Shown piece after piece: positions 40,666 through 42,552 of a stretch of DNA of 64,000 bases. The notes beneath the pieces are model-generated. The model saw nothing but the letters and a program-made list of their open reading frames with translations, did no database searches and was not told the origin of the DNA. The position numbers and the translations under genes were made by a program. The DNA is taken from positions 3,152,001-3,216,000 of the forward strand of contig NZ_CP091110.1 of assembly GCF_021560175.1 (NCBI RefSeq), given 5' to 3'. Position 1 is the first letter of the stretch; each line of letters begins with the position of its first letter. The DNA comes from Neobacillus drentensis. GTDB taxonomy: Bacteria > Bacillota > Bacilli > Bacillales > Cytobacillaceae.

Positions 40666-40956
40666 GTTTTTCCTTCTTCCCTTATAATGTTGTTATGTAT
40701 TTTGCATTAAAAATACAATTTCCTCTAAAATTATACAAAAAATGCGATCTTCTGCATAAGGAAGTATAGTATCCGAAGATCTATAATTCAAGCAGAAGTA
40801 ATAAATTCACACAAACTTAAGATTACAATATGATAGGAAATCTAGCAACAGCAAAACAACAATTAATCCTAACGGAGATCGATATAGTGAAAATAATGAT
40901 GTGCAGATTTGCGCTCAGAACAAAACAACAATTTCTTCATATATAAGAACGGTGGT
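40666..40956. other. Intergenic region upstream of uppP and before repeat array 2
   Basis: AT-rich. It holds the uppP promoter region. I see no small gene and no clear operator. Confidence 0.5.
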
Positions 40957-41112
40957 GTCCGAAGTCGAGCCAACTTCAGACAAGGAAGAGCCAAAAGAGC
41001 GAGATGGTGTCCGAAGTCAAACCAACTTCAGACAGGGAAGAGCTGAAAGAGCGAGGTTGCGTCCGAACTTGAGTCAGCATCGGACAAGGAAGAGCCAAAA
41101 GAGCGAGATTCT
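40957..41112 (+). repeat. Tandem array of 52-bp hairpin repeats (array 2)
   Basis: Three units start at 40957, 41009 and 41061, period exactly 52. Each opens with GTCCGAAG/AC and an inverted CTTCAGAC-like arm, then a spacer with AAGGAAGAGCCAAAAGAGCG. The hairpin half is related to array 1 at 16697, the spacer half is different. An open frame crosses the array but codes only for the repeat and is not a gene. Confidence 0.88.
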
Positions 41113-41246
41113 GGATTTTCCATGCAGTTTCGACAAAAAAATCACAACACCAGGATTTTCGGACTACCAAAATTTACAGCTAGCTTCCAAATGGGGGAGA
41201 TGTTATAGTTTTTCATGTAAGTTGTTAACAATAATCTTTTTTTCAC

Positions 41247-41337
41247 AGAGAAGTACTCAAGTGGCTGAAGAGGCGCCCCTGCTAAGGGTGTAGGTCGGGT
41301 AACCGGCGCGAGGGTTCAAATCCCTTCTTCTCTGCCA
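41247..41337 (+). tRNA. tRNA-Ser (anticodon GCT)
   Basis: Acceptor stem AGAGAAG/CTTCTCT, long variable arm typical of serine, anticodon loop CTGCTAA with GCT at 41281-41283, T-arm GAGGGTTCAAATCCCTT, CCA encoded at 41335-41337. It ends only 8 nt before the tmRNA, so both probably share a transcript. Reads AGC/AGU codons. Confidence 0.96.
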
Positions 41338-41345
41338 TTTTATAT

Positions 41346-41706
41346 GGGAATGTCATGGTATCGACAGGGATAGTTTGAGCTTATATGGCGAGTCGAGGGA
41401 TTCGGCCTCGTAAAAACGATAAAGCCGATAACTGGCAAACAAAACAACAACTTCGCTTTCGCTGCTTAATAACAGCCGATAGCGGTTCCTCCATCCATCG
41501 TCCATGTGGTATGGTAAGGGACTCATTTTTAAGTGGACTACGCCAGAATCCGCTGTCTGAGGATGAAGGGAAGAGAATAACCAGACTAGCTGCTTCCATG
41601 CCTGTCAGTGGGCTAAAGAAGTGAGTGAACTTAAAACTGCTGACTACACTCGTAGAAGTATAAGTGGCAATATCTTTGCACACGGGTTCAACTCCCGTCA
41701 TTTCCA
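41346..41706 (+). ncRNA. ssrA: Transfer-messenger RNA (tmRNA)
   Basis: Rescues stalled ribosomes by acting as tRNA-Ala and mRNA. Tha tRNA-like end pairs GGGAATG (41346) with CATTTCC (41699-41705); the 5' part has TATCGACAGGGATAG and the 3' part the T-arm CGGGTTCAACTCCCG. CCA is not encoded. The tag reading frame begins at GGC 41434 and reads GKQNNNFAFAA, followed by tandem TAA stops (41467-41472). The usual Bacillus tag ends in LAA; here the last residues are FAFAA. smpB, the usual neighbour, is not in the window. Two long open frames that overlap this region are artefacts. Confidence 0.95.
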
Positions 41707-41727
41707 CTAATTTTTTTAAAAAATATC

Positions 41728-41756
41728 TTGATTAGATTTTGGGTAATTTGTATAAT
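41728..41756 (+). promoter_or_regulatory. Sigma-A promoter inside the RNA island
   Basis: TTGATT (41728-41733), exact 17-bp spacer, TATAAT (41751-41756). Transcription would start near 41763, so the half tRNA-Thr at 41778 lies at the 5' end of the transcript that carries tRNA-Thr, tRNA-Asn and the SRP-type RNA. Confidence 0.8.
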
Positions 41757-41777
41757 ATATTCATGACGCAAAAAGTT

Positions 41778-41803
41778 GCCGGTTTAGCTCAATTGGTAGA
41801 GCA
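41778..41803 (+). pseudogene. 5' half-copy of tRNA-Thr
   Basis: Twenty-six bases identical to the 5' end of the intact tRNA-Thr at 41927 (acceptor strand plus D-arm). The anticodon arm, T-arm and 3' acceptor strand are missing. The following stretch to 41926 is not tRNA: it can form hairpins TAGGCT...AGCCTA and CTGACC...GGTCAG (the latter with an inner GCTT/AAGC). It may be a partial duplication, the scar of an insertion, or a leader that mimics tRNA. Confidence 0.85.
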
Positions 41804-41926
41804 CGACCGAATAGGCTTCCTGAATAGCCTACAGCATACTGACCGAGCTGCTGCTTGCATAAGCATTCTGAGGTCAGGATGACGTTTACTATCCATCGTG
41901 TTTAAACTTATTATATCTCAAATTTG

Positions 41927-42002
<76 letters not shown>

Positions 42003-42036
42003 GAATTTTTTGCATAAGCAAAATAACTTAGTTTAT

Positions 42037-42108
42037 TCCGCAGTAGCTCAGTGGTAGAGCTATCGGCTGTTAACCGATCGGTCGTAGGTTCGAGTCCTAC
42101 CTGCGGAG
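42037..42108 (+). tRNA. tRNA-Asn (anticodon GTT)
   Basis: Acceptor TCCGCAG/CTGCGGA, anticodon GTT at 42069-42071 in loop CTGTTAA, T-arm TAGGTTCGAGTCCTA. CCA is not encoded (TCA follows the discriminator G). Confidence 0.95.
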
Positions 42109-42110
42109 TC

Positions 42111-42186
42111 ATAGTCCAACAAGGACACTAGGAACAGGTCAGGGCGGGAACGCAGCAGCCATAACTAGTGAAATTGTGTGGACTAT
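42111..42186 (+). ncRNA. Compact SRP-type RNA (4.5S-like, no Alu domain)
   Basis: A 76-nt rod starting 2 nt after tRNA-Asn. Ends pair ATAGTCCA/TGGACTAT; an inner stem CACTAG/CTAGTG leads to the SRP domain IV signature: GGTCAGG, a GCG-GGAA-CGC apex, and AGCAGCC. These are the conserved Ffh-binding asymmetric and symmetric loops with a GGAA tetraloop. Bacilli normally use a long SRP RNA of about 270 nt with an Alu domain, encoded elsewhere; this short form is therefore unusual. A strong terminator follows. Confidence 0.8.
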
Positions 42187-42202
42187 TACATAGGACGAAC
42201 TA

Positions 42203-42240
42203 AAAACGCTAGACTCACATTGAGTTTAGCGTTTTTTCTT
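42203..42240 (+). terminator. Terminator of the RNA island
   Basis: AACGCTAGACTCA pairs with TGAGTTTAGCGTT with one G-T pair, followed by TTTTCTTTT. Confidence 0.92.
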
Positions 42241-42333
42241 TTACTTTAAGCAGCGAAAATGATTAAATAAAAAAAGCGACAACAAGATTTTACTATTGAG
42301 TCAAGTGTCTAAAGTAGAAAAGGAGTTGTGACA

Positions 42334-42552
42334 ATGAAAAATGATAAAGATGTCATTTCCTTTAGTGCCAATAAAAAATGGCTATCAATCCCTGAAGAAA
42401 CTCGTAGAATGCTGGAAAAAAATGTTTGGTGTGGATCTTGTTCGGAAGCAGTTACAATCGAAAAATATACGGTTGAAGGCTCGCCTCACGGCATCGTATT
42501 GCGCGGTCAATGCAAAAAATGCGGACATGCCGTAGCAAGGGTGATAGATTAA
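42334..42552 (+). CDS. Small zinc-ribbon-like protein
   Basis: A 72-residue cytosolic protein with two CxxC pairs, CGSC and CKKC (in VWCGSCSEAV and GQCKKCGHAVARV), about 30 residues apart, which should hold one zinc ion. The family is not recognised. AAGGAGTTGTGACA precedes ATG 42334. A DUF1904 gene starts 38 nt later and is likely co-transcribed. A role in nucleic-acid or protein binding is possible for such ribbons, but nothing more can be said. Confidence 0.75.
   Translation: MKNDKDVISFSANKKWLSIPEETRRMLEKNVWCGSCSEAVTIEKYTVEGSPHGIVLRGQCKKCGHAVARVID

Follow-up and report, generated by a model that had tools for sequence, protein, structure and literature searches.

A genome normally has one gene each for SRP RNA, tmRNA and RNase P RNA. 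In the window, the whole 64-kb stretch of DNA analyzed here (C1:3152001–3216000 of a 6.26-Mb genome in a single contig), a compact SRP-like RNA lies directly behind a tRNA gene, at the end of a run that also holds a tmRNA. The locus raises the questions of what this RNA is, whether it is retained as an SRP RNA beside the long form, how its ends would be made and what it could contribute to the cell.

Identification of a short SRP RNA

A cmscan of the 64-kb window placed the RF00169 family (Bacteria_small_SRP) at positions 42108–42192 of the plus strand, with a score of 50.0 bits, where the gathering score is 40, and an E-value of 6.8e-8. The compact SRP-type RNA that an earlier note had proposed from the sequence alone thus passes the curated threshold of the family (40 bits). 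The RNA (42109–42192, plus strand) folds as a single rod at -29.3 kcal/mol (z -5.86), a fold equalled by none of 200 shuffled sequences, and its outermost pair, 42111/42186, delimits exactly the 76-nt rod that the earlier note had described. The Ffh-binding apex occupies the tip of the rod (42137–42160) and is composed of GGTCAGG (42137–42143), the GCG/CGC stem with its GGAA loop (42144–42153) and AGCAGCC (42154–42160). The domain IV signature had therefore been correctly recognized, and the RNA displays the RF00169 trait of GGTCAGG/AGCAGCC loops under a GNRA-type tetraloop. The discriminator base of tRNA-Asn is 42108, so the rod begins 2 nt later, in agreement with the spacing originally reported.

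The Alu domain, a trait of the RF01854 family (Bacteria_large_SRP), is absent: a genome-wide RF01854 search gives only two long copies, and the end of tRNA-Asn directly abuts the start of the short RNA. One long SRP RNA, taken as native, is encoded at C1:27171–27435 (251.5 bits), and the other at C1:2674980–2675245 (214.2 bits), 1.2 kb from the second RNase P RNA. The short RNA is therefore the third SRP gene of the genome; the idea of an additional Alu-less copy beside the long SRP RNA stands, but not its count as the second gene. The earlier note would have been refuted by a genome lacking a long SRP RNA or by a score below threshold; the short RNA passes the small SRP model, and the genome does contain long SRP RNAs. 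These searches, together with the covariation over 28 copies, the promoter element and the gene arrangement described below, support a separate Alu-less variant. The ffh gene is single in the genome, as judged by a TIGR00959 profile search; the other match, at 233.5 bits, falls under the cut-off of 473.2 and was taken to be FtsY rather than a second Ffh.

The RNA resembles the 4.5S type (RF00169) in its domain IV signature, its rod fold, its lack of an Alu domain and its score above the family threshold, but it differs in measuring about 84 nt, in coexisting with long SRP RNAs and in lying inside a tRNA/tmRNA unit. E. coli 4.5S RNA has a far longer helix, and the distal site of GTPase activation may be missing here. 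With the Bacillus scRNA type (RF01854) it shares the same Ffh-binding apex, whereas it lacks the Alu part and has a G-C apical pair where the native long RNAs have U-A.

At the second long SRP RNA of this genome, two ORFs lie opposite and between that RNA and the second RNase P RNA (L085 7371–8314). One of them is ADP-ribosyltransferase-like (ART-PolyVal, 33.6 bits, cut-off 31.2), and the same family is also found near accessory RNAs in genomes G009 and G012, being seen at 3 of the 13 loci listed.

Organization and transcription signals of the unit

The unit runs in one direction, on the plus strand, in the order tRNA-Ser, a second tmRNA (tmRNA-2), tRNA-Thr, tRNA-Asn, SRP RNA and terminator. 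It is preceded by a promoter element of short-SRP units at 41167–41207, CCAAAATTTACAG...TTCC...TG-T-TATA, which has an extended -10 and lacks a TTGACA-like -35. A CCA end is encoded in both tRNA-Ser (gct; 41247–41337, found by ARAGORN and Rfam) and tRNA-Thr (tgt; 41927–42002, ARAGORN). Between them, tmRNA-2 (41346–41709; 195.9 bits in Rfam) specifies the tag GKQNNNFAFAA and has CTA, not CCA, at its 3′ end, while tRNA-Asn (gtt; 42037–42108), which abuts the SRP RNA, is followed by TCA at 42109–42111, where CCA would be expected. An intrinsic terminator of 16 pairs and a T run ends the unit (42202–42236). It is the sole terminator-like site in 40700–42400, although shuffled versions of the region average 1.3, so that the count alone proves nothing; the same scan revealed no terminator-like site between the upstream genes of the unit. 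Hairpins with T runs were seen by eye 3′ of many other short-SRP copies.

A possible internal promoter of the sigma-A type, TTGATT-17-TATAAT (41728–41756; 10 of 12 positions), precedes tRNA-Thr. The region contains six promoter-like sites as compared to 4.0 (sd 2.0) in shuffles, and the scan alone proves nothing; a similar pair was seen by eye in five of six aligned rows. The SRP RNA may thus have two promoters, in which case its transcript need not start at the tRNA-Ser promoter.

The promoter element in front of tRNA-Ser recurs at constant spacing, as CCAAA(A/T)TTTACAG...TTCC...TGNTATA, before other tRNA-Ser-led units and before solo short SRP RNAs. A 41-bp pattern built from the short-SRP copies was searched in 60 genomes with up to 2 mismatches, and gave 27 matches in 19 of them, against 3 for the reversed control. 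At no more than one mismatch there were 25 matches in 18 of the 60 genomes, every one at a short-SRP unit. The two matches outside short-SRP units both carry 2 mismatches and look like chance, and a wider regulon was set aside. By this pattern, the element is specific to the short-SRP unit and no mark of a wider regulon in the genomes searched. It precedes 25 of the 27 Neobacillus short-SRP copies, and is missing from the G006 unit and from the tRNA-Thr-led copy of G034, which has, by eye, an internal promoter-like pair before tRNA-Thr; the Litchfieldia genome G054 gave no match to the pattern. Given that the element also stands before solo copies that have no tRNA, it is the SRP RNA itself that is kept with the promoter. 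The promoter of the second RNase P RNA (RNase P RNA-2) differs from this element; a loose likeness in the -35 region was seen, for which we claim no kinship.

The gene neighbourhoods of the units vary between genomes. Among the 10 neighbour genes of the window unit, 7 match Pfam families that are neither toxin nor defence, and 3 match none. The widest family considered as a conserved protein partner, DUF1904, occurred in 9 of 26 sources and was read as shared synteny.

Between tmRNA-2 and tRNA-Thr, the stretch 41778–41884 (plus strand) comprises a tRNA-Thr 5′ half and about 80 nt of conserved sequence. By alignment it is nearly identical in G018 (L061) and missing from four other aligned units, and among the 246 loci fetched an exact 28-mer of it is limited to loci of these two genomes. 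Its fold is not unusually stable (z -1.3); the stretch is possibly a small RNA.

Conservation and distribution

Short SRP RNAs are present as 27 copies in 19 of 36 Neobacillus genomes, this one included, and 14 of the 27 have a tmRNA in the same unit. When second long copies are counted as well, 26 of the 36 genomes have an accessory SRP RNA; none was seen, with stricter filters, in the other 10, implying that the accessory SRP is dispensable. A pattern search over 84,980 species returned 27 stretches, of which 24 are from Neobacillus or Bacillus sp., one is from Litchfieldia salsa and two are from one 'Paenibacillus sp.', but the pattern was built from these same copies and more distant forms would escape it.

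An alignment of 28 copies (27 distinct), 27 from Neobacillus and one from Litchfieldia, has standard pairs in 98.1% of pair cells. Two-sided changes affect 11 of its 24 pairs, as compared to a mean of 2.8 in shuffles, none of 500 of which was as high, and to at most 3 in slid structures; the copies are related, and these counts are not independent. The two short SRP-like RNAs of G039, the one of G267 and the short SRP RNAs of G098, G348 and G418 do not belong to this alignment. GGTCAGG is present in 28/28 copies, and AGCAGCC and the GGAA tetraloop in 27/28 each. The compensatory changes and the near-invariant motif argue that the RNA is under selection as an SRP-like structure, and a rod-like helix upheld by covariation is a further trait of RF00169. 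On this comparative evidence, the RNA of the window is a real, conserved gene.

In G039, the two short SRP-like RNAs are near-identical and lie 47 kb apart (L067 5396–7416 and L068 3343–8762), each near a phage-type integrase gene. One is beside tRNA-Val, and the other is some 4 kb from a CRISPR-associated gene.

Short and long SRP lineages

All 28 short copies have G-C as their apical pair. In the native long RNAs the pair is U-A in each of the 29 that were matched, from a set of 30 loci taken as native by score. For loci selected through model R1, or through blastn queries of the short RNA, the contrast is biased to G-C; its unbiased part is that G-C also occurs in 6 of 8 Neobacillus second long copies examined. 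The remaining two, from this genome and from G012, are similar to the native RNA.

The two accessory forms also share a position. A long SRP RNA follows RNase P RNA-2 by 56–94 nt in six genomes (G007, G008, G014, G015, G016 and G019), and a short one follows it by 94 nt in G006. In the Litchfieldia-type genomes G054, G098 and G348, an RNase P RNA lies about 86–105 nt before the short SRP RNA, and in G418 an RNase P RNA also precedes it, with a tRNA in between. These sequences are most simply read as showing descent of the short form from a long accessory SRP RNA that lost its Alu domain. The short SRP-like RNAs of G267 and G039, which have U-A, look like separate events.

Second lineages of tmRNA and RNase P RNA

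The genome has spare copies of all three usually single RNAs, namely SRP RNA, tmRNA and RNase P RNA. The native tmRNA (C1:5326031–5326365) stands beside a SmpB-like ORF. Its T loop is interrupted after GGTTCGATT, with an HNH-type ORF behind (L083 3288–4366, within C1:5322000–5330000), and the interruption is probably a group I intron; tmRNA-2 of the window is uninterrupted. In a tree, a single clade (100/100) unites 13 Neobacillus tmRNA-2 sequences with the tmRNA of G160, which belongs to an SRP/6S cluster in a different family, and 13 native tmRNAs lie outside it. At least two tmRNAs were found in 8 of 22 Neobacillus genomes.

A second RNase P RNA was found in 15 of 22 Neobacillus genomes; the other RNase P RNA of this genome is at C1:4263871. 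In a tree whose bootstrap had not settled, and to which the RNase P RNAs of G098, G348 and G418 do not belong, the 15 second copies group as a single clade (100/100) that a long branch separates from 18 native ones. The RNase P RNA of Litchfieldia salsa (G054) falls outside this clade, on a long branch and with an unsure placement. Since the tmRNA of the unit is itself a second one and a second RNase P RNA is present too, the thing to be explained is a set of RNAs, not one RNA.

The abutting tRNA and the 5′ end of the SRP RNA

In Neobacillus, all 21 units with an SRP-abutting tRNA found by ARAGORN lack CCA in that tRNA, whereas CCA is present in 26/26 other tRNAs of the same units. For the remaining 6 of the 27 copies (L064:9524, L072:6915, L073, L078, L079 and L080), an abutting tRNA is either absent or not detected by ARAGORN. 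In the more distant G418, a tRNA-Gln that abuts the short SRP RNA likewise lacks CCA, as do some other tRNAs of that genome. The idea that CCA loss marks SRP-abutting tRNAs alone is weakened by tmRNA-2, which lacks CCA in 13/13 Neobacillus copies examined and keeps its G3-U70 pair, by eye.

The tRNAs of Bacillus that lack CCA are matured by RNase Z, which cuts behind the discriminator base. With a CCA-less tRNA in front of the SRP RNA, the 5′ end of the latter is therefore predicted to be made by RNase Z, in this unit by a cut just after 42108 that would leave the 5′ end of the SRP RNA at 42109.

Among 18 SRP-abutting genes of the tRNA-Asn type compared, 13 are identical, counting that of the window, which served as the reference, and 5 differ. 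These 5 tRNA bodies carry 32 changes, of which the D arm has 10 and the anticodon arm 11, far more than the T arm with 1 and the 3′ acceptor strand with 3. Remnants of a tRNA that, by eye, keep the acceptor and T arm and have lost the anticodon arm are present in G006 and at the Litchfieldia-type loci. We take this as the abutting tRNA turning into a processing handle. However, the 13 identical bodies may simply be working tRNAs, and the solo short SRP RNAs, which have no tRNA in front, imply that the handle is not needed everywhere. At one locus (L059 19551–19625), the SRP-abutting tRNA combines an Asn-type body with a Ser (gct) anticodon and may no longer decode properly.

Possible roles of the short SRP RNA

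We assign a probability of about 0.6 to the reading that 42109–42192 is a working, Alu-less SRP RNA encoded by the last gene of an accessory stable-RNA unit. It would be a second type of SRP RNA, with domain IV on a short helix and no Bacillus-type Alu domain. Transcription would proceed from the promoter element through tRNA-Ser, tmRNA-2, tRNA-Thr, tRNA-Asn and the SRP RNA to the terminator, possibly with a second start before tRNA-Thr. RNase P and RNase Z would cut the precursor at the tRNAs, the RNase Z cut behind the CCA-less tRNA-Asn would set the SRP 5′ end, and the terminator hairpin would be trimmed off the 3′ side. The short RNA would be loaded with the only Ffh of the genome, giving a second SRP population that targets ribosomes but has no Alu domain for slowing elongation. 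More speculatively, the set of SRP RNA, tmRNA-2, RNase P RNA-2 and tRNAs might supplement or replace the native RNAs under some condition.

The near-invariant Ffh-binding motif fits a working SRP RNA and a decoy alike. As a decoy or regulator, the short RNA would bind Ffh and leave the targeting cycle incomplete, so that its level would set the availability of the Alu-type SRP; the helix is very short, and with one ffh only, competition would be unavoidable if the short RNA is expressed. We consider this role unlikely. The GGAA tetraloop, presumably the FtsY/NG docking site, is kept in 27/28 copies, and a mere decoy would need it less, yet folding could also keep it; the outer helix is upheld by compensatory changes, and the short SRP RNA often travels with tmRNA-2 and tRNAs, which are no Ffh decoys. 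The compensatory changes in the SRP fold also speak against a mere passenger, that is, a transcribed but functionless remnant of an integrated plasmid or tRNA array, as do the conserved promoter element and the fact that tmRNA-2 and RNase P RNA-2, which have high model scores, each fall into a clade of their own. The patchy distribution, the varied neighbourhoods and the decayed tRNAs of some units would suit a passenger, which we regard as very unlikely overall.

A different kind of alternative concerns purpose, and is compatible with a working SRP RNA: tRNAs, tmRNA-2, RNase P RNA-2 and SRP RNA-2 could be a backup or anti-defence set that replaces native RNAs damaged by toxins or defence systems. 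Such a purpose has been proposed likewise for tRNA array units, described in the main text of the two sources as putative antidefense (PMC12803027) and, in some cases, as containing tmRNA (PMC5966550). The interrupted T loop of the native tmRNA with its adjoining HNH-type ORF, the non-native lineages of tmRNA-2 and RNase P RNA-2, and the Priestia plasmids that carry SRP RNA with rRNA, 6S and tRNA genes are all consistent with it. On the other hand, the units show no link to a toxin or defence gene: their neighbourhoods vary, the present one has 7 of 10 neighbours in other Pfam families and 3 unmatched, and the ADP-ribosyltransferase-like family is at just 3 of 13 loci listed. The backup purpose is a tentative option.

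Returning to the working SRP RNA, a broader and rather doubtful extension is that Bacillaceae share horizontally a second set of core noncoding RNAs (SRP RNA, long or Alu-less, tmRNA, RNase P RNA, 6S and tRNAs) of non-native lineages, which works with the single native protein partners. Switched on by its own promoters, this set might lend different properties to translation, targeting and rescue, or sustain them during an attack on the native RNAs. The 5′ end of its Alu-less SRP RNA would be supplied by a tRNA, reduced in some species to no more than a processing handle.

The data suggest an accessory set of core RNAs in some bacteria, many Neobacillus having second lineages of SRP RNA, tmRNA and RNase P RNA. 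Where an Alu-less SRP RNA exists next to an Alu-type one, with one Ffh in the genome searched, the function of the bacterial Alu domain can be addressed in a natural setting; in B. subtilis, sporulation depends in part on the Alu domain. The system also allows one to ask if different SRP RNA isoforms use the same protein and what keeps spare stable RNAs in a genome, and the tRNA-abutted SRP gene is a clean test case for the maturation by bacterial RNase Z of an RNA other than tRNA.

Relation to mobile elements, tRNA arrays and other genera

When the SRP part was compared by blastn with 50,697 phage and 72,556 plasmid records, no match covered 80% of it. The phage matches listed are short pieces with E-values of 3 to 9, and three Priestia plasmid matches proved to be long SRP RNAs. 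With a wider query including tRNA-Asn, the matches listed cover only the tRNA-Asn part and a few adjoining bases. In viral contigs, the strict SRP core gave 0 matches. A loose core matched 8 stretches, half of which (4) are 77-bit small SRP RNAs, whereas the other 4 have no SRP match at the gathering score. A phage or plasmid origin of the exact window RNA is thus unsupported by the phage, plasmid and viral-contig searches. The 'plasmid' matches for RNase P RNA, tmRNA and SRP RNA that were opened have native-type neighbours (a DivIVA-type gene, smpB and dnaX) and were set aside.

Plasmids of Bacillus/Priestia megaterium, such as pBM400, carry rRNA operons. PMC10645730 likewise bears on such operons. 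In the Priestia plasmids that we inspected, the arrangement is either 6S, long SRP RNA and 5S with a run of tRNAs, or 16S-23S-5S with 6S and long SRP RNA. The window unit is like these operons in grouping stable-RNA genes, there on plasmids, but it is chromosomal, lacks rRNA and has the short form of SRP RNA. A 9.8-kb plasmid of Priestia megaterium H2 (L133 598–8126) carries 16S-23S-5S, 6S, a long SRP RNA and two integrase genes.

The tRNA array units known from Mycobacterium, as presented in the main text of PMC5966550 and PMC12803027, are clusters of spare tRNAs on chromosomes, plasmids and phages, some of which contain tmRNA (PMC5966550) and some another structured RNA. The window unit resembles them as a cluster of spare tRNAs with a tmRNA. 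It differs in having few tRNAs, three and a tmRNA where the arrays are characterized in these texts as dense runs of about 20 or more tRNAs, in its SRP RNA and in the second RNase P RNA elsewhere in the genome. The phrase 'signal recognition' has 0 occurrences in the main text of both papers. Titles and abstract openings in the literature, mostly outside subscription papers, likewise yielded no accessory SRP RNAs in such clusters, which is weak evidence of novelty.

In other genera, SRP RNAs occur with tRNA runs, 6S, 5S, tmRNA or RNase P RNA, as seen in a scan of 20 loci from the 55 genomes with an R1 match. Their scores are mostly below those of native genes in these 20 loci. Sixteen of the 20 order-wide R1 loci are long SRP RNAs, so R1 counts must not be taken as short SRP RNAs. 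In G418 (L187 and L215–L217), a run of 11 tRNAs is accompanied by RNase P RNA, Bacillaceae-1 RNA and the short SRP RNA, and two further tRNA runs have SRP RNAs that look long by eye.
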